In this document: piece by piece, positions 1 to 53,184 of the stretch
How positions within the stretch are numbered: the stretch's first letter is position 1
Layout of the letters: each line of letters starts with the position of its first letter
Origin: a virus
IMG/VR virus record: IMGVR_UViG_3300024239_000011
Location: 206,303-270,302 of that record
Direction: 5' to 3' (one strand)
Length of the DNA stretch: 64,000 nucleotides
Program-made: the position numbers and the translations under genes
The notes under the pieces: generated by a model
Databases searched by the model: none
The model's input: the letters and a program-made list of their open reading frames with translations, nothing else
Told to the model about the DNA's origin: nothing

Positions 1-891
1 GGTCGGAGCCTCGAACACACCTTCGGTGGTACGAGCGAAAGCGGAGGTGGTTGCGGACTGAAGAATGGTCAGCGCAGTCGGGGAAACCACAACCCAGTTA
101 CCAGCACCACGACGGGTACGGGCAGCGATGAGGTTTGCCTGACGGTTGATCAGAACGGCCAGAGCGGCATGTTCGTCACCAACGAAGGTGGCGGTACCAG
201 AGACGTTGCCCTGGTCGTACATGGCGGTCGGGGTGCCCGGCAGAGCGCGAAGGCTCTGAAGGATTTCCTGATCGATTTCAGCAGTGATTTCCTGAGCCAG
301 AGCGGCCATGATTTCAGCTTCGATGTCGATGCCCTGCTGAGCCTGTGCGTCCTGCGCGGCTTCGAAGGTCCAGCGAGCGGACAGACGACGGGTCTTAGCT
401 TCGACGGTTTCCTTCAGGATTTGGATGTTCAGGCGAGGACCGGGAACACCTTCCATCGTGGCAGTCGGAGCAGCCTTCGGGTTATTCGGGTCTTGGTTAC
501 CCGAGTAGAAACGAGCAATGTCGAACGGGGACAGAGCTTCGGTACCAGCAGTCACGCCGCCGCCAACCGCAGGGATCGTGTCGGCATAACGCACACGCAG
601 GGTGTGAATCTGAGCGACCGGACCAGTCATTGGCTGCACACCAATGATTTCATTGGCAATGACGGTGGGCATAACGCGCCGAATAACCGGCAGAATAACC
701 TTGTTCAAAGTTGCGATGTTGCCAGTAGCGGTAGCACCGACAGTGGCGTTTTCCAAGATCGGGGTCTTGGACATCAGGTCTTTGCGAGTGTTCTCAAGAA
801 CAACTTCCATGACCTTCTTCTTATTACCGGTCAGACCCTCGCAGAGAGCATCGCGGGTCTGCTTCCAGTGTGATTCAAAAAGCTTCGACAT
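1..891 (-). CDS. 23: Major capsid protein gp23 (N-terminal part; gene runs off the left edge)
   Basis: Main shell protein of the T4-type head, normally matured by the gp21 protease. The ATG at 891 opens a frame without a stop to base 1, so the C-terminus is outside. The family signature is clear at about residues 64-95: VILPVIRRVMPTVIANEII followed by GVQPMTGPV, the segment equivalent to the T4 gp23 region that contains the Gol peptide. A second recognisable stretch, DIEAEIMAALAQEITAEI, lies near residue 190. A Shine-Dalgarno-like GGAGATAGGGAAC precedes the start. It is the last gene of the minus-strand gp68-gp21-gp22-gp23 block, the T4 order. Pieces of this N-terminal region recur in small genes at 48285-48957. 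Confidence 0.95.
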   Translation of the reverse strand, partial: MSKLFESHWKQTRDALCEGLTGNKKKVMEVVLENTRKDLMSKTPILENATVGATATGNIATLNKVILPVIRRVMPTVIANEIIGVQPMTGPVAQIHTLRVRYADTIPAVGGGVTAGTEALSPFDIARFYSGNQDPNNPKAAPTATMEGVPGPRLNIQILKETVEAKTRRLSARWTFEAAQDAQAQQGIDIEAEIMAALAQEITAEIDQEILQSLRALPGTPTAMYDQGNVSGTATFVGDEHAALAVLINRQANLIAARTRRGAGNWVVVSPTALTILQSATTSAFARTTEGVFEAPT

Positions 892-33075: not shown

Positions 33076-33960
33076 ACAACTTTTAGTTATTGCACCAGAT
33101 CGAGGTACCACCTTCCCTCCCATAAAAGAAGGAAGATGGTAACACGGATTTGCACCGAGTCTCAGTACCCGAACATCGAGGCTAGTGCTTTAAAACAGCA
33201 CGGTAGGCGGGTCGTCGTACTCCTACCATCCCCTCTCACCTTCACTCCGACCGGTGCCGATCAGGGACTTGTCGGTAATTCCTGACCGGGTGCCTGTTGT
33301 GGTTCATCACATATCAGGCTCTTTGCACCAAATAACCTAAGGTAATTGGATTTACATAGCTACACTCAGTAGCCGTGTCTATTTCAGTTCGATTGAACTG
33401 GGGTCCGCTTGGCGTGCCTTGCATTCCCTATCCCGCCGACTGCACTCGTGGTCTTGTTGATCCCACAAGCGGATTTCCAGCGGTTGTGCTACACTCACTC
33501 AATGTCTTCGTCGGCGGCTGTGTAGCCTATTGTCCGAAGCCAGGGGTACTGCGGGATCACAGTGGTTGAAATCCCTGTGTAGGTATATAATGCTGCGAGC
33601 AGCTACGCTAAATATGTGCATAGCTGTTCGCAGCTATATGACACCTTCCGGTGTCCTGCTTAACTGCCCAGACGGAAACCCTCACCATGCCCGGTGGGGG
33701 TTTCTTTATGTCTGGACATAACCGAGATAGGGTAAACCTATTGAGCCTGTGGACGTGCTGAGTAAAGAGCGGTGTTAACGGAGCCAAGAACGGGATGGGA
33801 TTATATCCCTGCGCCGAACCGCAGAAGTCCACAGCTTGGAAATTATATGCGGAATTTTTACCTAACCACATAAGATTTTACCTGAAAGAATCGAAAAGAC
33901 TCGTGCAGGTTGCCGTACACGAGTCTTAACGAATCTGTAGTGGTAGCCGCAATATAAAAA
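33076..33960. ncRNA. Candidate large structured noncoding RNA region
   Basis: 885 bases with no convincing protein gene on either strand but many stems. Examples: 17-bp stem 33592-33608/33618-33634 with one wobble and one mismatch; 12-bp stem 33675-33686/33693-33704 inside an outer pair CCAGAC/GTCTGG; 10-bp stem 33896-33905/33918-33927; GCTACAC/GTGTAGC (33488-33494/33520-33526); CAGTTC/GAACTG (33385-33400); CCGATCAGG/CCTGACCGG (33257-33289); an anticodon-like GTGCT-7 nt-AGCAC stem (33185-33201); and a long-range pair GATGGTA/TACCATC (33135-33230). On the minus strand one stem is capped by a GGAA (GNRA) loop (33640-33655). This resembles giant ornate phage RNAs such as GOLLD or ROOL; membership is not shown. 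Confidence 0.55.
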
Positions 33961-34203
33961 TTAGGTATGCCTGAGGATTTCCTTGCGGATGATCTTCGCA
34001 TCCACTTCAGGTCGTGACGCGATTTTCAGGCTTACCGACGAACCGTGGCACGTACATTCGGTGCCAGTGAATGACACAAATCCAGCCGCGATAACATGAC
34101 CGGGCATAGCATTTGCGATCAACGCATGTTCGATGTAGTTTGGGAAAACGATGGCAGCATCATTTAGACCATTGTCCATAATGACGTATTTGGCGTCTTT
34201 CAT
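33961..34203 (-). CDS. Hypothetical protein, 80 residues
   Basis: Last gene of the minus-strand early operon that starts at 36204. Begins MKDAKYVIMDNGLNDAAIVF and holds a TECTCHG Cys pair. The start overlaps the preceding stop. Function unknown. Confidence 0.6.
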   Translation of the reverse strand: MKDAKYVIMDNGLNDAAIVFPNYIEHALIANAMPGHVIAAGFVSFTGTECTCHGSSVSLKIASRPEVDAKIIRKEILRHT

Positions 34204-34820
34204 TACAATCCTCGTCTGGTAATGGTGTCGATGGCGCGTTGAAGCATTTCAGTTTCGGAATTGGTCAGAGTGGTGCCCAGTCGGGTACGGATTGATTCCA
34301 GTCCTTCAAGGGTTTCGTCCTTTCTGACTTTCGCGGCGGTTTCCTTTTCCTCTTGTTCTTTCTTCCGTGTTGCTTCGCGTGCTGCTTCGTCCGCTCTACG
34401 CTTGCGTTCTTTTTCTTCGTATTCCGCAGTAGCAATCGCGATCTCTTCGGTGGTCATAAGACGCCGATGACCATATGCATTTTGAAAGCGCCAGCCCAAA
34501 ACCAGCGGTGCAAGGTCGGCAAGGTCGTAGTTTTTGTTGGCGTGGTGTGCCTTGAGGAATTCGGTTTCCCCAAAACCATAAGAGTAGGTTTCCCACAGGG
34601 CATCCACTAGGAGAGCTTGCTTGCCCCAACCATACGGACGGCGAGCGTAGCCCACCAACGCACCATCGACGCGGATTTCCCACCGGGTGCGTTCCTTGGG
34701 ATGTCCATCGGGGTTTCCTTCCGATACCCACTGATGGCGCCAGCGTTCGATCTGCGTAAATTCGACCGTGCTGCCGTCGATCATGAAACTGACGGTTTTG
34801 GATTTCGGCTTAGTAGGCAT
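34203..34820 (-). CDS. Hypothetical protein with C-terminal coiled coil, 205 residues
   Basis: N-terminal mixed domain with Trp-rich strands (SFMIDGSTVEFTQIERWRHQ), then a long Lys/Glu/Arg coiled coil (YEEKERKRRADEAAREATRK) and a short helical end. The ATG at 34820 (MPTKPKSKT) is chosen because the region before it belongs to the previous gene. Unknown function. Confidence 0.65.
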   Translation of the reverse strand: MPTKPKSKTVSFMIDGSTVEFTQIERWRHQWVSEGNPDGHPKERTRWEIRVDGALVGYARRPYGWGKQALLVDALWETYSYGFGETEFLKAHHANKNYDLADLAPLVLGWRFQNAYGHRRLMTTEEIAIATAEYEEKERKRRADEAAREATRKKEQEEKETAAKVRKDETLEGLESIRTRLGTTLTNSETEMLQRAIDTITRRGL

Positions 34821-36297: not shown

Positions 36298-37092
36298 TTA
36301 GATTACGGAAGATCGTGCGGTTCGTGCTGACTGATGATGGGATGCCCCGCCGTAGGGGTTTGCCATTTCCATGTACTTCAGAAGGTATTGCTCGGGTGCT
36401 ACACGGAAATCGATCATCCATGGGGTGTCACCGCGTGGCATCTTTCCGGGTTTCTGGTGCAGGATGGCGATTTTCCACGTGGTGTCTTTAGCAATATCAA
36501 CACCAGGGACAACAATCCGGTTCTGGGTGTACGGGGTTTTGATTAGCGACCGGCGCTGTGCTTCATCGTATTCGATTTCCAGCAGACGACGCGGAATTTG
36601 GATGTGGCGCTTGCGCGTTTCATCCAGACTTTCCAAGAACTCATATGAACCGCTACCCTTGACCTGAATGCGGGCAGAGTTGCCATAGAATTTCAGGATT
36701 TCCGCAACCAGCGCCCGACGCACTTCGCGATGCACTGACATCGGGATGGAGATTACGCTTTCGACCAGCATGAGGATTTGCTTGTCGGTGGCGAAAAGCC
36801 CGTCCCGATGCGTCTGAAGGCTCTCGGGAAGCTCGACCTTCTCCTTGGTGCCAGTCACTACCTTCCGCACGTCAAAGCCCTCTTGGATCGCGGTACCGAG
36901 GGTGTTGATGGTCTGATCCGTGATGGTAGCCAAGAGCTTGGGATCGCGACGGAGCATCCGCATCAATTCCGTGTTCAGGGCGTTGTACAGGACAAGTTCC
37001 TGACCCATAATTGTGCGCACACGGGTCTTATCATGGTATGCAAGCTCTACCGTGTATTGCTGATTTGTTGTTTTCTTATCAATTCTGGTCAT
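36298..37092 (-). CDS. Hypothetical protein, 264 residues
   Basis: A sizeable, well-formed protein that I cannot place. The front reads QYTVELAYHDKTRVRTIMGQ, LVLYNALNTELMRMLRRDP; the middle is helical; the C-terminal third has strand-like PGVDIAKDTTWKIAILHQ and WMIDFRVAPEQYLLKYME. Divergent from the ADP-ribosyltransferase-like gene and insulated by its own terminator, so probably a single-gene unit. Confidence 0.7.
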   Translation of the reverse strand: MTRIDKKTTNQQYTVELAYHDKTRVRTIMGQELVLYNALNTELMRMLRRDPKLLATITDQTINTLGTAIQEGFDVRKVVTGTKEKVELPESLQTHRDGLFATDKQILMLVESVISIPMSVHREVRRALVAEILKFYGNSARIQVKGSGSYEFLESLDETRKRHIQIPRRLLEIEYDEAQRRSLIKTPYTQNRIVVPGVDIAKDTTWKIAILHQKPGKMPRGDTPWMIDFRVAPEQYLLKYMEMANPYGGASHHQSARTARSSVI

Positions 37093-37132
37093 AGTAACTC
37101 CTTTGTACCCGAAACTCGGATAGAAACATCGC

Positions 37133-37143
37133 TGATAAATATT
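37133..37143 (+). promoter_or_regulatory. Possible late promoter for the ADP-ribosyltransferase-like gene
   Basis: TGATAAATATT located 33 bases before the start at 37177; TAAATA core with a non-standard last base. Confidence 0.4.
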
Positions 37144-37176
37144 TTCAGGATCGTTCTATTTATTTTTCGAGGCAGG

Positions 37177-39237: not shown

Positions 39238-39899
39238 TGGTAGAGCGGTTGGAGCCTCGGGAAATTCTACGGCGGTTTGGCTCGCCGGAATATAAGCAGC
39301 AACGGCAGCGCAAGATGTCGAACTACCAGAACGTGGTGTTCGATAATTGCGAACGGATTTTCGGAAAGTACCATTCTTGGGTGCGGTACTCTGAAATGCT
39401 GTTATGGCTCCAACCCAAAGATCGCGGGCTGTTATACGTCCACCCACAGGTTTTCCCGTTTGATGGGCGCCTGGGGGTGGTTGTTTCGGAAATTCTCCGG
39501 TACACCTCAATCAAGCTTCAGAAGAATGGGTCTGATTTGGTCAAGGGAAGTGAGGTAATCCGGGGCGGTGAACACATCATCGACGTGGAACGGCAGATGG
39601 ATGACGCGGATCACCTACAAATAAGCTGTCGCCTCCCGTTTAGCTCTTACCATATGGCGGGAATGGTTGACGACAAAGCGTGTCATTTTGTCAACCTGAC
39701 TAACATGAACCTTCCGGCGCGGGGATCAAGTAACGGACCATACCCATCGGTTTGTGCAATTTTCCTGAAACAAGAGGACGCCGGGAAATACCGTGATTGG
39801 TTGGTCAACCTGATCCATTCCAATCCAGAATATTTCTCGTGGGAAGGGTCGAACCTATATTTCAGTCCACTCTATCCAGAATTCCCGAAGGATTTTTGA
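39237..39899 (+). CDS. Hypothetical protein, 220 residues
   Basis: Starts in a TGATG overlap with the nuclease gene. Trp/Tyr-rich with no motif I recognise (begins MVERLEPREILRRFGSPEYK). Probably co-expressed with the nuclease. Confidence 0.65.
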   Translation: MVERLEPREILRRFGSPEYKQQRQRKMSNYQNVVFDNCERIFGKYHSWVRYSEMLLWLQPKDRGLLYVHPQVFPFDGRLGVVVSEILRYTSIKLQKNGSDLVKGSEVIRGGEHIIDVERQMDDADHLQISCRLPFSSYHMAGMVDDKACHFVNLTNMNLPARGSSNGPYPSVCAIFLKQEDAGKYRDWLVNLIHSNPEYFSWEGSNLYFSPLYPEFPKDF

Positions 39900-40045
39900 T
39901 GTCAACCGATAATTATTGTATGACCAAACAAGAAATTCTCAAGGCGTTACTGGAAGGTATCAAAAAGAAACCCGATCCTCCACCTGAAATTGATCCGGAA
40001 GTTAAACAGTTTTTCGAGGACAGCCGATCTGAACCACCTGATTAG
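39899..40045 (+). CDS. Small protein with C-terminal DPxVxxFF motif, 48 residues
   Basis: Helix TKQEILKALLEGIKKK, a Pro-rich hinge and the ending EIDPEVKQFFEDSRSEP. The ending resembles those of the small proteins at 48285-48494 (SDPQVKAFFDDLRQ) and 48491-48712 (PDPQVVDFFEQNK). Starts on the preceding stop (TGATG). Overlaps the convergent gene by 44 bases. Confidence 0.55.
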   Translation: MSTDNYCMTKQEILKALLEGIKKKPDPPPEIDPEVKQFFEDSRSEPPD

Positions 40046-46645: not shown

Positions 46646-46987
46646 CTACCGTATACACTCTGCATACAAAGGGAGCAAATCGTTATATAGAGCCATCACA
46701 TCACCTCCGTTCTTTTGCACATAGAAGCTATGTGGTGGTTGGGTACCTTTCATTTTGTTGCACTCTTGACAAGCGGCAACAATGTTGATCCAGCTATGGG
46801 CGCCACCCTTCGAACGCGGGATTATATGGTCCCGCGTTGGATGATCCATGATCTTTCCGCAGTAGGCGCAACGATGGTTCTGAGCTTCTGACAGCCGGGA
46901 AAGCGACACCCCGATCCCATCTGGGTCGTAGCTGCATTCCCGGCGCAAATCTGACCAGATCAACTGGACGCCCATATCATCGCGCAT
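46646..46987 (-). CDS. HNH endonuclease, 113 residues
   Basis: Compact HNH domain: CAYCGKIM, RDHIIPRSKGGAHSWIN and ACQECNKMKG give two zinc Cys pairs and the catalytic His. The ATG at 46987 overlaps the gp47 stop; a TTG at 47002 is less likely. It may be a small homing enzyme that helped open the gap between gp46 and gp47. Confidence 0.85.
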   Translation of the reverse strand: MRDDMGVQLIWSDLRRECSYDPDGIGVSLSRLSEAQNHRCAYCGKIMDHPTRDHIIPRSKGGAHSWINIVAACQECNKMKGTQPPHSFYVQKNGGDVMALYNDLLPLYAECIR

Positions 46988-48000
46988 CAAACGCTTCTCC
47001 AAATCTCAACCAGAATAGCGTTGTCGATGGTAGCCGAATCGACAGCCAACAAACCTTCTTCAATGATCTGGTCGATAGTTTGAAAATTCACTTCTAGTGC
47101 GGTGTTGCTCATTTCATCCACAAGGTTTTTGGGGCGAAGTTCCATTTCACGGACTTGGAACATCCGTTCCAGTTCGTCGCGGATGGTCGCCATTTCCTCG
47201 TAGGACAAATCAACATCAATGGTAACGCGGGCGTACACGTCTGGGGTCAAATACTTCGACGGGTCTGCGATAATATCTGAAAGATTGGTCGTGATGTATT
47301 TCGGGCAGTTTTCCCAATCGCGATAGATGGGCTTGCCGCCGTGTTCGATCAGCATGCAACCGCGTTCGAAGTCCCATGCGTCGGCGTAGTTGTGAGGGAA
47401 CGCATTACCGATATAGTGAATGTTGCCCGACCGCTGGCGTTTATGGAAGTGTCCGGTGAATACGTACTCCTGATTAGTGAACAGGTTCTTGTTGACCGTC
47501 CCGTGGTCCTGGCATTCGATCATCGCGTTAAGCAGAAAACCGGGGATTTCAAAGTGTCCAAAGACGTATTTTTCTTGCCACTCGGGAATACTCTTCCATT
47601 CGTCTCCAATCATCCAGGGCTGGAAGCGCGTGTCACCAATGACCAATGGATGCTGAACGACCGTCACTTTTTCAAGCAATTGACCAAACCGCGCGGATGT
47701 CACGTCACGTTTGTCCTTGAAAAACATATCGTGATTTCCCACGACAAAGTAAACGTTCGTGAAATATTCTGCCAGCCGTGTCAACCCTTCAATACCGTAA
47801 TTTAGTGTATTCACGTTGATAGTGCTGCGATTATGGAAGAAGTCACCCAAGAAAATACAAGTTTCAGCACCAAATTCATCGGCTTCCTTTATAAACCAAT
47901 CAATAAAATCCAAACAGTCGTTGTTATGGGTGTCTGAATTACTTCGGCACCCAAAATGTATATCTGTGAAGACTGCTGCTTTCTGGAATGCCATCGTCAT
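46987..48000 (-). CDS. 47: Recombination endonuclease subunit gp47 (Mre11/SbcD-like)
   Basis: Metallophosphoesterase nuclease partner of gp46. Metal motifs: VFTDIHFG near residue 11, IFLGDFFHNR near residue 50, FVVGNHDMFF near residue 90, and YVFTGHFHKRQ near residue 185. 337 residues, as T4 gp47 (339). ATG at 48000 has an AGGTG ribosome site. Confidence 0.93.
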   Translation of the reverse strand: MTMAFQKAAVFTDIHFGCRSNSDTHNNDCLDFIDWFIKEADEFGAETCIFLGDFFHNRSTINVNTLNYGIEGLTRLAEYFTNVYFVVGNHDMFFKDKRDVTSARFGQLLEKVTVVQHPLVIGDTRFQPWMIGDEWKSIPEWQEKYVFGHFEIPGFLLNAMIECQDHGTVNKNLFTNQEYVFTGHFHKRQRSGNIHYIGNAFPHNYADAWDFERGCMLIEHGGKPIYRDWENCPKYITTNLSDIIADPSKYLTPDVYARVTIDVDLSYEEMATIRDELERMFQVREMELRPKNLVDEMSNTALEVNFQTIDQIIEEGLLAVDSATIDNAILVEIWRSV

Positions 48001-48042: not shown

Positions 48043-48264
48043 TTATTTCAGTCGCTCGACATACCGACGCACGTAATCGCCCCAATCACCAACTACCGCA
48101 TTATCAGAACCGTTGATTTCAACGCCGTAGCTCGCGATACTAACCCTAATCCCTGGTGGAATAGGCATACGCACGCTCTTGATTTCAAGATCGGGGTTCC
48201 TGGCAACAAAAATCAAAATACCGTCGTCAATCTTGACTAGATTGATGGGATAATGGATAACCAT
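48043..48264 (-). CDS. Hypothetical protein, 73 residues
   Basis: Strand-rich small protein (MVIHYPINLVKIDDGILIFV) ending in a helix (WGDYVRRYVERLK). Sits between gp47 and the capsid-fragment cluster. Unknown. Confidence 0.55.
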   Translation of the reverse strand: MVIHYPINLVKIDDGILIFVARNPDLEIKSVRMPIPPGIRVSIASYGVEINGSDNAVVGDWGDYVRRYVERLK

Positions 48265-48284: not shown

Positions 48285-48494
48285 CTAATCATCTTCTAGC
48301 GCATTTTGACGCAGATCGTCAAAAAATGCTTTTACTTGTGGGTCAGATTTTGGTTCATATCCGGGGAGTGTTGTGACATGGGAACCCGGTAATTTTTGTG
48401 CGCTCATTGGTGATAGCTCAATAAAGTCGTCAACGACGACCGTTGGCATAACCCGCCGTATCTCAGTGATTTTGCGTTGCATTTCGTCGTTCAA
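48285..48494 (-). CDS. Small protein carrying a major-capsid-like segment, 69 residues
   Basis: Residues 8-30 read ITEIRRVMPTVVVDDFIELS followed by PMS, a close match to gp23 of this phage (IRRVMPTVIANEIIGVQPM). The rest is unrelated and ends SDPQVKAFFDDLRQNALEDD. Start overlaps the upstream stop (ATGA), so it is translated as part of the cluster. Function unknown; a capsid mimic or decoy is one idea. Confidence 0.65.
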   Translation of the reverse strand: MNDEMQRKITEIRRVMPTVVVDDFIELSPMSAQKLPGSHVTTLPGYEPKSDPQVKAFFDDLRQNALEDD

Positions 48495-48712
48495 TCTTCG
48501 ACCTCGGTTTTGTTTTGCTCAAAGAAATCCACCACCTGTGGGTCGGGTTCCTTCATAGGTGAAATTTTGGGTGCGCATATACCGGGCATGTCGGTTAGAA
48601 CTTCCGGCATTACTCTGCGTATTACGGGAAGGATAACCTTCGTCATACCTACCGGTCCATCCAACAATGCCTGTTTGGTTTCTAGCCAGTGGGACGTGGT
48701 TGGTTTGATCAA
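48491..48712 (-). CDS. Small protein carrying N-terminal major-capsid-like segments, 73 residues
   Basis: SHWLETKQALLDGPVG matches gp23 residues 7-22 (SHWKQTRDALCEGLTG), and TKVILPVIRRVMPEVLTDMP matches the later gp23 stretch NKVILPVIRRVMPTVIANEI, with the intervening gp23 residues missing. It ends PDPQVVDFFEQNKTEVED. Both junctions with neighbours overlap by four bases. Confidence 0.7.
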   Translation of the reverse strand: MIKPTTSHWLETKQALLDGPVGMTKVILPVIRRVMPEVLTDMPGICAPKISPMKEPDPQVVDFFEQNKTEVED

Positions 48713-48957
48713 TTCTCTGGCTCCCGACTGTTCGCGAGAAAGAATCCACGCCCGCTCGTTTTCGCGGATTTCTTCTTCGGTTCGATCTCGGCGGTAATCT
48801 CATGCGACATCGCTGCAATAATTTCAGCCTCAATATCGGGGTGTGCTTCATGATGGCGAAACTGCTGCCCGAATTGCGGCTCGTCTATGATGAATTTAAT
48901 CAAGGGCGTCCATCGCTTCTTGGCGCTGTTGCTCAAAATAGCTGCGAGTGTCGCCAT
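48709..48957 (-). CDS. Small protein carrying an internal major-capsid-like segment, 82 residues
   Basis: DIEAEIIAAMSHEITAEI matches gp23 DIEAEIMAALAQEITAEI. It continues with a Lys-rich tail and SGRGFFLANSREPEN. The start may be the ATG at 48957 or a TTG at 48903 (overlapping the previous stop); both give the matching segment. Confidence 0.6.
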   Translation of the reverse strand: MATLAAILSNSAKKRWTPLIKFIIDEPQFGQQFRHHEAHPDIEAEIIAAMSHEITAEIEPKKKSAKTSGRGFFLANSREPEN

Positions 48958-49252
48958 GGATTTCTTCCATGCGTTCTTTAATTACCGCGAGGACTTTTTT
49001 AGTATGTGGACTGATTTTTTCGGGCGACCTCGCGAATTTGTCCAGTAAACGCCGGATTTTATGAGGATGGGTACGAACCATTTGATCGTAATAGTCTGGA
49101 TCGATCTCATCACCATCTTCATCTTCGAGCGCCAGTTCATCGGCGTCTACGTCCTTATAGCAGTCCTCGTCGGGGACTTCCGTATCATCTTCAATGATCG
49201 ACGGACGGTAAAAATTTGCCGTATGACCCTTACCGTAATATCGTCCAGTCAT
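48896..49252 (-). CDS. Acidic small protein, 118 residues
   Basis: Acidic middle (DVDADELALEDEDGDEIDPD) and basic helical end finishing SYFEQQRQEAMDALD. The ending resembles that of the next gene upstream (NFWEAQRADAMKDFD). Begins on the preceding stop. Unknown function. Confidence 0.6.
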   Translation of the reverse strand: MTGRYYGKGHTANFYRPSIIEDDTEVPDEDCYKDVDADELALEDEDGDEIDPDYYDQMVRTHPHKIRRLLDKFARSPEKISPHTKKVLAVIKERMEEIHGDTRSYFEQQRQEAMDALD

Positions 49253-49563
49253 CAGTCAAAATCCTTCATTGCATCCGCACGCTGCGCTTCCCAGAAATTC
49301 GTGATTGCTGTGGTATTACTGCGTTGCGCCGCGAGTAGCTGTTCAAATTCGGTAACCCAATCAAGAAACCCATCAACTTCGTGTGGCTCTACGATTTCTG
49401 CGGCATATTCACGCATGTGACCCATGAACTCTGCGCACAATTCCGCTGGGATCATGGTCAGATCGATAACGAATCGGTTAAAGTCGATATCACCGTATTG
49501 GTCTTGGTGAACCACGATTTGATAAACGTTTTCATCCCCTTCGGGAATTACATTTATGGTCAT
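49252..49563 (-). CDS. Small protein, 103 residues, first of the cluster
   Basis: MTINVIPEGDENVYQIVVHQ, then helices; ends NFWEAQRADAMKDFD, like the following gene. Start overlaps the folD stop (ATGA), linking the cluster to folD expression. Confidence 0.6.
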   Translation of the reverse strand: MTINVIPEGDENVYQIVVHQDQYGDIDFNRFVIDLTMIPAELCAEFMGHMREYAAEIVEPHEVDGFLDWVTEFEQLLAAQRSNTTAITNFWEAQRADAMKDFD

Positions 49564-50450
49564 CGGAAAATTCCACTGTCATGGGTTAAAGTAATACCGC
49601 GTTGCCGGGCACACGCCATTACCGTGTTGTGCATCAAGCATGCGATGGTCATTGGTCCTACGCCGCCCGGAACTGGGGTGATCGCCCCCGCGACCTCTTT
49701 CACGGCATCAAAGTCAACGTCGCCGCAGAGTTTACCATCGGGAAGGCGGTTGATACCCACGTCGATAATCACCGCCCCTGGCTTCACCCAATCTTTCTTG
49801 ACCAGTTTCGCCACGCCAGTAGCCACCACCAGAATGTCGGCGGTACTGCATTCGGCTTCGATATCCTTGGTATGCTCATGGCACATTGCGATAGAGCAAT
49901 GCTCGTGTAACAGCAACGTAGCTATTGGTTTGCCCACAATGGTCGAACACCCAACTACGACCGCCTTTTTGCCGGTCAGATCGTGCCCCAGATGCTTCTT
50001 GATCAGCATGAGGCATCCCATGGGGGTACAGGGAATGATCCCGCCGCCATTAGTGACCAACAAACCCACGTTGTCGATGTGGAAACCATCTACATCCTTT
50101 TCTGGGGCGATGGCATTGATGACCGCGTGCTTACTGATGTGGGGCGGGAGGGGAAGTTGAACCAGAATGCCGTGAACCTGATCACTCTGGTTGAGCATGT
50201 CGATATAGCCGAGTAAACTGTCCTGGGTGGTATGGGTGGACAGATTGAACATCAGTGATTGGACGCCAATTTCCTCGGCGGCTTTCGCCTTGTTGCGTAC
50301 ATAGATATGGCTTGCCGGATCATCACCGACCATGATCACCGCAAGGCATGGTACGGTACCATGTCCTTTGAGTTCCGTGATTTGGTGGGAGAGGGTTTGA
50401 AGAAGGCGTTTTGATTCGGCTTTGCCGTCTATAATTTGAGCATCTGGCAT
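49560..50450 (-). CDS. folD: Methylenetetrahydrofolate dehydrogenase/cyclohydrolase
   Basis: Bifunctional folate enzyme interconverting methylene-, methenyl- and formyl-tetrahydrofolate, feeding thymidylate and purine synthesis. Motifs: SHIYVRNKAKAAEEIG (catalytic Lys), GILVQLPLPPHI, EKDVDGFH, VVVGCSTIVGKP (NADP site) and ITPVPGGVGPMTIACLM. The ATG at 50450 gives 296 residues, normal for FolD. It uses NADP+, another link with NAD+ supply. Confidence 0.95.
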   Translation of the reverse strand: MPDAQIIDGKAESKRLLQTLSHQITELKGHGTVPCLAVIMVGDDPASHIYVRNKAKAAEEIGVQSLMFNLSTHTTQDSLLGYIDMLNQSDQVHGILVQLPLPPHISKHAVINAIAPEKDVDGFHIDNVGLLVTNGGGIIPCTPMGCLMLIKKHLGHDLTGKKAVVVGCSTIVGKPIATLLLHEHCSIAMCHEHTKDIEAECSTADILVVATGVAKLVKKDWVKPGAVIIDVGINRLPDGKLCGDVDFDAVKEVAGAITPVPGGVGPMTIACLMHNTVMACARQRGITLTHDSGIFR

Positions 50451-50487
50451 ACTGTGCGACCTTTCGGTTTGATCCGAAAGAGTACCA

Positions 50488-50533
50488 AACTGGCAAAACA
50501 TGGAGCAATTTTATTCATCATGTTTTGCCAGTT
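50488..50533. terminator. 15-bp perfect inverted repeat between folD and the homing endonuclease
   Basis: AACTGGCAAAACATG (50488-50502) pairs with CATGTTTTGCCAGTT (50519-50533). It follows the stop of 50539-52278 and precedes folD on the minus strand; it could be a terminator or a regulatory palindrome. Confidence 0.5.
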
Positions 50534-50538
50534 GGTTT

Positions 50539-52278
50539 CTACTTCAATACCAGCGCATATACCGCGTTACCACAATCATATATAAGGTTCCACCCGTTCT
50601 GGCGCATGTTTTCGATTTCGGTTTGTGCAGGATCAAAATGGTCTAACTTTCCCTTCAGTTTGTGCTTTTGAAACCCATTTCGAGATTGTAAATTCATATT
50701 TCCTTTGAAATAGAAATAGTTGGGTGGGGAGGTGTTGATATATTCAAATCCAAGTGCCTCGTATAATTTCCCCCGTCCCCAACGTAAATCTGCATAGGAG
50801 ATGATGGAAGACGGATTATGATGTGTAATGAACGCATTCAGTAATTTACCAGCACCACCAATCACCGTCGTATTAAGTCCGCTTGAATACCGTAAAATTT
50901 CCCACTCATATTTGTGCGAATACCGGCTTTTGGAAAAACTCATTGCTGCAACAAGATCATTATCAAAAAGTAGACCATATGTGACGGCGGCATGTGCATG
51001 CCCTTGTAGGTGGGTTTCGGAAAAAAACATCTTGCTTGTTTGATGATCCAATTCGACTACTTCAGTCTTACGGGCATATATGCTATTAGCATTTCCAAGA
51101 ATTGCACAAATACGGCTTTCAACGATTTCGCGTTGAAGCAACCATTCATTTTCCCATACATGGATTAATGTTATTCCGCGTTCTGTGCATAGCTTTGTTT
51201 TCATGGAATGGTAGTTCTTTGGTTTCCCGGCATTGATTGAATGCCACCATAACCCATCGTACTCGAACGCAATGTTTTTTGAGGGTACGAAAATGTCCAA
51301 TTCGTACCCTTTTAACAAATGCCTGTTATTCGTTGTTACATCATAACCGAACCCGCGAATGAAATCCGTTAATTCGCGTTGTCCACTCGATACGAAGTGA
51401 ACTTTTGGGGTAATTCCATGTTGTTTGAACCGGTGACACACCGGGAAAATAGATATCCCCAACTGTTGGGCGATTTCTTTTAATGTATATGTTTGATTTT
51501 GTTCTTTAAGCCAGTCAATATCATCCAGTTTATCTGCGACTCCTGCTGGAAAATGATATTGGTTTGGTTTACGTACCCCTATGGACGTGAATAGCTCTTG
51601 TAGCTTCTCTTTAATGTGAAGAACTTTCATGGGATTGTCACGCCCATACTTTGCGATCCAGTGGTTTTTGGTTTGCTTAATAACCTCTGAATTTTGAGAT
51701 GGGTAATCTGTTCCAAACTTTTGGCGGTTGGTTTCTTTGACTTTTTCGATGATTTTGGTTGATTGAGTTGGCCAAGCAACTCCATGGTTGTGAAGATTTG
51801 ATTGCTGAACTTTATCTAGAATTTCAGCATTCATGGTAGGTGACTTCACCCCATATCGATCAATACAAGTTTGAGCGGTTGCGTGTTTGACAGCATCCGT
51901 CATTGATGCGAAATCCGCACCGTATTTTTCTCGGTTAGTCGTTTTCCGCTTGGTAATGATGTTTTGGCGATCTGTTTCCGAGCGATGTTCGCGTGCTTTT
52001 TCAGCGTTTTCTCGGTTACACGCGCATACCGACTGGTTGCCGCAAAATTTTAGATAGCCTTTATTAAAGGAAACAAAGGTAGGGCGCGAACCGTTAACGC
52101 ACATTATCTCGGGGACGGTTTTTCCATTCAAATATAGCCACAGTTTTTCTATATCAGGGACATCGAAGCCTCCAATAAAAGCTTCGATGTCTGCCCAAAA
52201 GTGTTCTTTTGCTATCTTCAGTTTTACTCGTGTATCAGAGTGTGATGATAGCATTTCAAGGTGGTGTTCTCGGTACAT
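50539..52278 (-). CDS. Large homing endonuclease: repeats, Vsr-like nuclease and acetyltransferase-like tail
   Basis: 579 residues. Residues about 95-225 hold repeated units such as KTTNREKYGADFASM, DRYGVKSPTMN and TNRQKFGTDYPSQ, typical of DUF7487-like DNA-binding modules in phage homing proteins. A helix-turn-helix (TLKEIAQQLGISIFPVCHRF) follows. The nuclease core near residues 320-400 reads YELDIFVPSKNIAFEYDGLW and ERGITLIHVWENEW (Vsr/EDxHD). The last part resembles a GNAT fold (LVAAMSFSKSRYSHKYEWEI, KLYEALGFEYI). AT-rich, inserted between gp55 and folD. Confidence 0.78.
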   Translation of the reverse strand: MYREHHLEMLSSHSDTRVKLKIAKEHFWADIEAFIGGFDVPDIEKLWLYLNGKTVPEIMCVNGSRPTFVSFNKGYLKFCGNQSVCACNRENAEKAREHRSETDRQNIITKRKTTNREKYGADFASMTDAVKHATAQTCIDRYGVKSPTMNAEILDKVQQSNLHNHGVAWPTQSTKIIEKVKETNRQKFGTDYPSQNSEVIKQTKNHWIAKYGRDNPMKVLHIKEKLQELFTSIGVRKPNQYHFPAGVADKLDDIDWLKEQNQTYTLKEIAQQLGISIFPVCHRFKQHGITPKVHFVSSGQRELTDFIRGFGYDVTTNNRHLLKGYELDIFVPSKNIAFEYDGLWWHSINAGKPKNYHSMKTKLCTERGITLIHVWENEWLLQREIVESRICAILGNANSIYARKTEVVELDHQTSKMFFSETHLQGHAHAAVTYGLLFDNDLVAAMSFSKSRYSHKYEWEILRYSSGLNTTVIGGAGKLLNAFITHHNPSSIISYADLRWGRGKLYEALGFEYINTSPPNYFYFKGNMNLQSRNGFQKHKLKGKLDHFDPAQTEIENMRQNGWNLIYDCGNAVYALVLK

Positions 52279-52314: not shown

Positions 52315-53184
52315 TTATTCCTCGCGATAATTCTTCTCCATTTCACGCATTTTATATTCATGTTCAATCTGACGTGTGAACGATGGGTTGTGACCCATTG
52401 CTTGAAGCATATCATCGCGAATACTTTGGTTTTTCTTTTCGATGTTTAACACTCTAGTAAAAGATGCAGTAATTACTGCTGTGTAATAGGCAAAGGGATT
52501 TGGTGTAATTGATCGTGACTCGTCAAATTGTAGTCCAACCTGGGAAAGCTGCACTAGGGCTTGGCTTTTCATTTCGTCAATGTATGTGTAACCGCGCCAA
52601 TTTCCGCGTTGACTATATTTGTCCACCAATTTCATGAACATAAAAGCGAGCCGGTGGGTAATTTTACCATGGTCGGTGCAGAATTGATCACCTTTCCAAT
52701 GGCTCCGTAACACTTCAACAAACTGCCCGTCTTTGAGAATGTAGTGTTTAAAGGGCGGGAAGTTCATCCGTGCCCGTTCTTCGTCCTCTCCGTCTGCATT
52801 TTTCTTTTTCTTCTTGTATTCCGGTGGAATGTGTTCATCCGTCATGACGCGGAATACGAGATTTTCAGTTTTGATATCATCAGCCGATGTATTGACTTGA
52901 ATTTCTTGGGGGCGAAATCCCATTTCAAGCAATTCTTCTTTTTTCTGCTTGGTGACGCGCTCGGCGTTATTCGCCTTGGCTGTTTGAATCATTTCTTCGG
53001 TGATATCGGACAAACGACCTTGTTTTTTCTGATCACCGCCCTCACCAACGATAATGTCGTAGTATCGAAACCTATCCTGTTGATACTCCGGATCAAGCAA
53101 TGAGCAATAGGTTAGCTTTGATTTGTGTATTTCGATAAGGAGTTCCTTGTTAGACAAGTAATTGATGCGTGGCGGTACTGACAT
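52315..53184 (-). CDS. 55: Late-transcription sigma factor, T4 gp55-like
   Basis: Directs host RNA polymerase to TATAAATA late promoters. The front INYLSNKELLIEIHKSK matches the gp55 opening (YVNNKELL). The C-terminal region RLAFMFMKLVDKYSQR, GYTYIDEMKSQALVQL then NPFAYYTAVITASFTRVLN with IEKKNQS is the gp55 sigma region 2 equivalent. A Lys/Glu-rich insert of about 90 residues makes it longer (289) than T4 gp55 (185). Upstream of it the strand switches to the plus-strand baseplate genes. Confidence 0.85.
   Translation of the reverse strand: MSVPPRINYLSNKELLIEIHKSKLTYCSLLDPEYQQDRFRYYDIIVGEGGDQKKQGRLSDITEEMIQTAKANNAERVTKQKKEELLEMGFRPQEIQVNTSADDIKTENLVFRVMTDEHIPPEYKKKKKNADGEDEERARMNFPPFKHYILKDGQFVEVLRSHWKGDQFCTDHGKITHRLAFMFMKLVDKYSQRGNWRGYTYIDEMKSQALVQLSQVGLQFDESRSITPNPFAYYTAVITASFTRVLNIEKKNQSIRDDMLQAMGHNPSFTRQIEHEYKMREMEKNYREE

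Follow-up and report, generated by a model that had tools for sequence, protein, structure and literature searches.

Small genes carrying fragments of the major capsid protein gp23 in large T4-type phages: candidates for gp23 mimicry

Among the closest described systems is that of Gol, a stretch of the T4 major capsid protein gp23 that binds domains II/III of EF-Tu and is better conserved than any other part of gp23 (PMC3014915). In this Gol/EF-Tu/Lit (e14) system, Gol is internal to the full gp23 and has been studied as a cut-out peptide, and overproducing free Gol together with Lit activates the latter (PMC9712102). The major capsid protein is named in passages of PMC10884400 and PMC9712102 as being sensed by Lit, PifA, CapRel, SEFIR, CBASS and Pycsar. 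Tab, as described in a passage of PMC10884400, is a prophage protein that blocks virion assembly via the tape measure protein. Of the gp23 paralogues (Pfam PF07068), T4 gp24, with a 437 aa open frame, is gp23-derived and keeps the full-length capsid fold. The small genes described here, found in a phage record from IMG/VR and in at least four other phages, resemble each of these systems in part. Their N-arm pieces would correspond to the Gol stretch of gp23, which o73 and o69 have only in part, but they are encoded alone or on unrelated bodies and are putative binders. In contrast to gp24, the gp23-fragment proteins of 59-145 aa retain just one or two short stretches, from which a whole fold could not be made. 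With capsid-sensing defences and phage counter-defence the link is that the protein that would be mimicked often serves as a trigger, and in appearance the genes are accessory ones that change fast; but the papers searched describe no counter-defence made of capsid fragments, and a decoy role here is putative. Tab is comparable in being small, of phage origin and directed at components of the virion, but it targets the tape measure protein and is not presented as a capsid fragment in that passage of PMC10884400.

The window, i.e., the whole 64,000-nucleotide stretch that was analysed, covers positions 206303-270302 of a record of 543,035 bases. The nearest relatives of its gp23 are the major capsid proteins of Sinorhizobium phage Phosso (81%) and then Agrobacterium phage Atu_ph07 (69%). 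On the minus strand, the interval from the late sigma factor to the gp47/SbcD-like nuclease reads homing endonuclease, FolD, o103, o118, o82, o73, o69 and o73b, with o82, o73 and o69 consecutive (Table 1). This six-gene run is removed from the head genes and lies amid replication and nucleotide genes, and its neighbours, the late sigma factor and gp47, are of early/middle type. The endonuclease genes flanking the array are a possible route for moving gp23 pieces. The positions that the first-pass annotation gave for o82, o73 and o69 were borne out. It had also described these genes as coupled by ATGA overlaps; the overlaps are present, but those at o82/o73 and o73/o69 are TTGA with TTG starts, while an ATGA junction is found at FolD/o103 and a TGATG junction at o103/o118. 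If o82 begins at its ATG, it shares 62 nt with o118; it may just as well begin at a TTG at 48903 (64 aa), which would overlap the stop codon of o118.

Table 1. Features of the window and free-standing gp23 pieces in other phages. Positions are those of the window unless another record is named; A1 and A2 are the N-arm and spine segment profiles.
Feature	Location	Strand	Match
gp23 major capsid protein, 399 aa, start at 891, cut by left edge of window	1..891	-	Pfam Gp23 E=8e-98
82 aa ORF, same tail VKQFFEDSRSEPPD plus MTKQEILKALLEG	39797..40045 (record 246099-246347)	+	
HNH and homing endonuclease genes flanking array region	46646-47002 and 50539-52278	-	
gp47/SbcD-like nuclease, downstream border of region	46987..48000	-	PHROG 100 E=3e-58
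o73b, 73 aa, downstream small gene, neither gp23 piece nor shared tail	48043..48264	-	
o69, 69 aa, starts at a TTG, carries the second N-arm copy, IRRVMPTV......I...PM	48285..48494	-	score 63 to own gp23
o73, 73 aa, starts at a TTG, carries gp23 N-terminus (SHW.ETK.ALLDG) together with N-arm KVILPVIRRVMP	48491..48712	-	score 68 to own gp23
o82, 82 aa, gp23 spine-helix segment DIEAEIIAAMSHEITAEIE	48709..48957	-	score 69 to own gp23
o118, 118 aa array member, shared tail RSYFEQQRQEAMDALD, no gp23 piece	48896..49252	-	
o103, 103 aa array member, shared tail ITNFWEAQRADAMKDFD, no gp23 piece	49252..49563	-	
FolD-like gene, upstream, ATGA-coupled to o103	49560..50501	-	PHROG 7320 E=2e-102
gp55-like late sigma factor, upstream border of region	52315..53184	-	PHROG 12791 E=3e-82
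N-arm piece, in-frame upstream extension of annotated gene 276	Phosso 182175-182855		A1 E=9e-12
N-arm piece, 108 aa	G014 (IMGVR_UViG_3300047558_000137) 160311-160637		A1 E=4e-9
N-arm piece, ORF261, 261 aa, segment is last 40 residues	XacN1 AP018399.1 151297-152082		A1 E=2e-12
Spine piece, ORF451, 74 aa	XacN1		A2 E=3e-11
Spine piece, gene 163, 59 aa	Phosso		score 54 vs 26.7±4.2
Spine piece, 145 aa ORF	L252 (IMGVR_UViG_3300013101_000490)		Pfam Gp23 E=4e-15
C-terminal piece, gene 170	Phosso		Pfam Gp23 E=9e-6

That tiny proteins carry pieces of the phage's own capsid protein, as first proposed from the sequence, was upheld by alignment. The matched gp23 residues were 189-207 for o82 (shuffles 28.2±4.4), 7-19 plus 62-95 for o73 (28.5±4.5) and 70-98 for o69 (27.3±4.1), and in each case 0 of 1000 shuffles scored as high as the real protein, the real scores being 63-69. 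The scores of o103, o118 and o73b against gp23 were at noise level. In addition, o69 and o73 are related to each other along their length (score 52 vs 24.8±4.8). A scan of the record's ORFs no longer than 140 aa, 4614 in all, against gp23 found only o82 (E=4e-4), o73 and o69 at E<0.06, the next ORF having E=0.065. The N-arm profile gave E=1e-4 for o73 and 7e-4 for o69, and the spine profile E=3e-4 for o82. In tblastn against 50,697 phages the hits, at weak E values of 0.6-10, were mostly major capsid proteins for o73 and o69 and exclusively so for o82. No match at E<=1 to the Pfam Gp23 or PHROG models was found for any of the three. The full capsid fold of the Gp23 family spans about 390-520 aa, against 68-82 aa for the gp23-piece proteins here and 59-261 aa for those of other phages. 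Each match taken singly is short, with E about 1e-3 in its own genome, which would speak for a chance resemblance; this explanation was ruled out by the shuffle test and by the whole-record scan, in which three consecutive genes were the hits, and strong independent cases in other phages also speak against it, leaving it a negligible probability. The three ORFs are confirmed as carrying pieces of this phage's own gp23.

The fragments also show signs of constraint. In the matched cores most third bases differ from those of gp23, whereas first and second bases are largely the same; o73, for example, has 12 consecutive residues identical to gp23, with most third bases changed. For eight pooled segments from four phages compared with gp23, pS was 0.74 and pN 0.30, while neutral simulation at pS 0.74 gave pN about 0.63 (minimum 0.57), a comparison in which the segments had been chosen for matching gp23 and in which a donor gp23 from another phage, importing its silent differences, lies outside the model. 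The cores of o73, o69 and o82 had pN 0.11-0.22, with wholly different adjoining residues. Coding scores of the frames were 0.08-0.18 (0.18 for o82); true genes had 0.16±0.09, and reading off-frame gave -0.13±0.09. An alternative frame, the 110 aa ORF at 48519-48851, scored -0.13 and was rejected. Recent neutral decay is disfavoured, because silent sites are saturated in the matched stretches while the amino acids are kept and the frames are coding-like. A neutral remnant is expected to have replacement divergence equal to its silent divergence, and broken frames; the pooled pN lay well below the neutral value and the frames are open. The first-pass view that the genes are not simply decaying thus agrees with the substitution pattern, with the coding-like frames and with the similar pieces in other phages. 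Searches of IMG/VR, in a set from which near relatives of this record may be absent, found no orthologues of o69, o103 or o118, so that selection could be measured against gp23 itself only. No relatives of o118 were found in GTDB genomes, and when IMG/VR was scanned with o73, the 11 loci checked among the best 80 were all full gp23s.

Several gp23 pieces lie in arrays of tiny overlapping genes with common C-terminal tails, away from head genes. While the first-pass account of the array was right about the gp23 pieces, it missed that the C-termini of o103, o118, o73 and o69 are alike, and are like those of four further small genes in the record, at 335216-335497, 334883-335197, 246099-246347 and 91201-91620. 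The tail of the third gives the genome's best match to those of o73 and o69 (score 52; the background of tail scores had mean 13 and 99.9th percentile 32). The tail pattern, [FY]FE.QR.EA...LD, occurs in small genes scattered through the genome; a DNA-pattern search of IMG/VR did not bring up the array tail, which was not found in Phosso or Atu_ph07 either. In the G014 contig the array, at 157.7-167.5 kb, consists of about 24 tandem tiny genes in 10 kb that end in LRW[A/S], each beginning inside the preceding stop. The end codons there, TTGAGGTGGGCATGA, contain the ribosome-binding site and the next start, so that signals for translation in part determine which residues come last, which weakened the idea of the shared tail as a universal module. 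The Phosso pieces are in two clusters with another common tail (genes 276-279 and 166), and XacN1 ORF451 lies within a run of overlapping small ORFs. In Phosso PV764938.1, four radical SAM genes and an oxidoreductase gene flank the small-gene array with the gp23 piece (179870-192395).

The pieces in other phages were found by searching related records with gp23 and the two segment profiles, and they recur in accessory, non-orthologous settings. Three are in Phosso and two in Xanthomonas phage XacN1, and a single piece each was found on an IMG/VR contig of 374 kb and on another of 7.6 kb; the cut-off of the Pfam Gp23 model itself was passed by six of them, namely the extended Phosso gene 276, Phosso gene 170, XacN1 ORF261 and ORF451, and the G014 and L252 proteins. 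The commonest pieces are the N-arm (Gol-equivalent) segment and the spine-helix segment. The same segments occur in several phages joined to unrelated bodies, and since they sit at different loci in different phages, inheritance of one gene does not account for them. The motif IIAAMS, common to o82 and the L252 protein and present in 0 of 90 gp23s, may hint at common descent of these two. Among 16 named T4-type phages surveyed with the Pfam model, 12 had nothing beyond the major capsid protein; the remaining four were Phosso and XacN1, with their pieces, T4, with a full-length second copy that we take to be gp24, and Vibrio phage KVP40, with a shortened copy. The latter, at 36321-37145 of NC_005083, is a 302 aa gp23 paralogue (Pfam Gp23 E=3e-41). 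Three further candidates were treated as chance matches: 488679 in our phage's own record (a 783 aa fibre-like protein), G006 30991 (internal stop) and G040 13978 (a 39 aa frame). The match at XbC2 23019 was weak (E=0.04), and that of a 91 aa array member of G014 to the spine segment was not significant. The N-terminal part of XacN1 ORF261 resembles the terminase large subunit weakly (PHROG E=0.07; 25-32 of 1000 shuffles were as good), and a terminase mimic was not established there. The Phosso gene annotated as 'terminase small subunit' (PV764938.1 249808-250653) is a degenerate paralogue of the terminase large subunit, with GKT changed to GIT, whose product matches TerL at 302683-304281 with E=2e-14. 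In our phage's own record, the TerL frame at 33710-34636 (minus strand; 308 aa) covers the N-terminal half of Phosso TerL and is perhaps a split or interrupted gene.

The same genome has a second gp23-like cluster, three coupled and mutually related genes on the minus strand (record 336968-339407) encoding proteins of 254, 298 and 260 aa. The 254 aa protein matches gp23 235-339 at E=2e-9, the 298 aa protein has a weak collinear alignment with gp23 82-340 (score 73 vs 32±5), and for the 260 aa protein no direct gp23 match was found. Given this cluster of shrunken gp23-like proteins, the pieces may arise from a duplicated gp23 that shrinks. A rival account makes the pieces functionless remnants of a gp23 that was duplicated or transplanted, remnants that homing endonucleases or patchy recombination moved and that happen to be still open, and the HNH and homing endonuclease genes beside the array and near the Phosso array would suit this, although such proximity is weak evidence, since these phages carry many endonucleases. 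Detection, moreover, is biased to the most conserved parts of gp23, and as both of the commonest pieces are among its best conserved parts, remnants would be easiest to recognise from them; and a gp23 donated by another phage would arrive with saturated silent sites. An outside donor does not explain, however, why o73 has KVILPVIRRVMP without a change but has lost most of the fifteen residues that follow, which gp23s conserve just as well. The low-pN cores beside wholly different residues are unlike a uniform neutral process, the frames are intact and coupled, the same segments stand on unrelated bodies in several phages, and o82 shares with the L252 protein a motif absent from gp23s. We consider functionless remnants unlikely.

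It is equally unlikely, in our judgement, that the proteins are head-assembly modulators that dock on the N-arm groove or spine-helix contacts of gp23 and tune assembly, size or the co-packaging of an attached protein. Both main segments are structural contact parts of the capsid fold, which would favour such a role, as would the 254 and 298 aa proteins, gp23-like and perhaps shrunken paralogues, and the retention by T4 of the paralogue gp24 as vertex protein. But the genes are not close to those for the head; their surroundings are replication and nucleotide genes, and unlike head proteins the small proteins are not conserved in relatives. Interference proteins, i.e., capsid fragments that poison the assembly of a co-infecting phage or satellite in a dominant-negative way, are less probable still. 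The setting is accessory and turnover-prone, capsid fragments could in principle cap assembly, and Tab, in the passage of PMC10884400 that describes it, blocks the assembly of rival virions by another route; but the segments match the phage's own gp23 equally well, so that self-poisoning would be expected, and no immunity element was seen.

The reading that we favour, tentatively and at a probability of about 0.4, is that these are real small genes, forming a recurrent undescribed class, that keep gp23 fragments and mimic gp23 toward its binding partner. We infer the binding, its partner, its timing and its benefit as follows. The retained stretch would imitate a face of gp23 and bind whatever normally grips unassembled gp23, and the remainder of the small protein, in many cases including an array-specific tail, would convert this contact into competition or sequestration. 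The partner would be host-side, either EF-Tu, the partner of the Gol stretch in T4, or a defence protein that senses the capsid. A host-side partner is more likely than phage head assembly, given the Gol/EF-Tu interaction, capsid proteins as defence triggers, the setting away from head genes and the orthologue searches, which found none. The correspondence first noted between the N-arm piece and the T4 Gol region is probable, on an assumed placing of Gol and its borders in T4 gp23. Against gp23 mimicry, the spine, A-domain and C-terminal pieces have no known trigger role. A plain Lit decoy, moreover, would have to bind without activating, because free Gol activates Lit (PMC9712102). In o73 and o69 the N-arm segment is present and the IANEIIGVQPM half is absent, while the other N-arm pieces keep it; the loss of this second half would fit a non-activating binder but proves nothing. 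That large T4-type phages keep accessory arrays which recruit stretches of their own capsid as selected decoys or partner-binding mimics against capsid-recognising host proteins is doubtful.

We found no description of stand-alone capsid fragments in the literature, including a comparison of 224 jumbo phages; open-access coverage was incomplete and an earlier notice is possible. The results point to free-standing gp23-fragment proteins as a so far undescribed class in large T4-type phages. Because Phosso and XacN1 are isolated phages, the idea is directly testable. Many bacterial defences watch the capsid protein, and stand-alone copies of the watched stretches, if that is what these genes encode, would be a new and general principle of counter-defence, and the fragments would reveal where on the capsid this surveillance is directed. 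If EF-Tu or head assembly should be the target instead, the fragments would be ready-made minimal binders, and some of the tiny orphan genes of jumbo phages would be explained.
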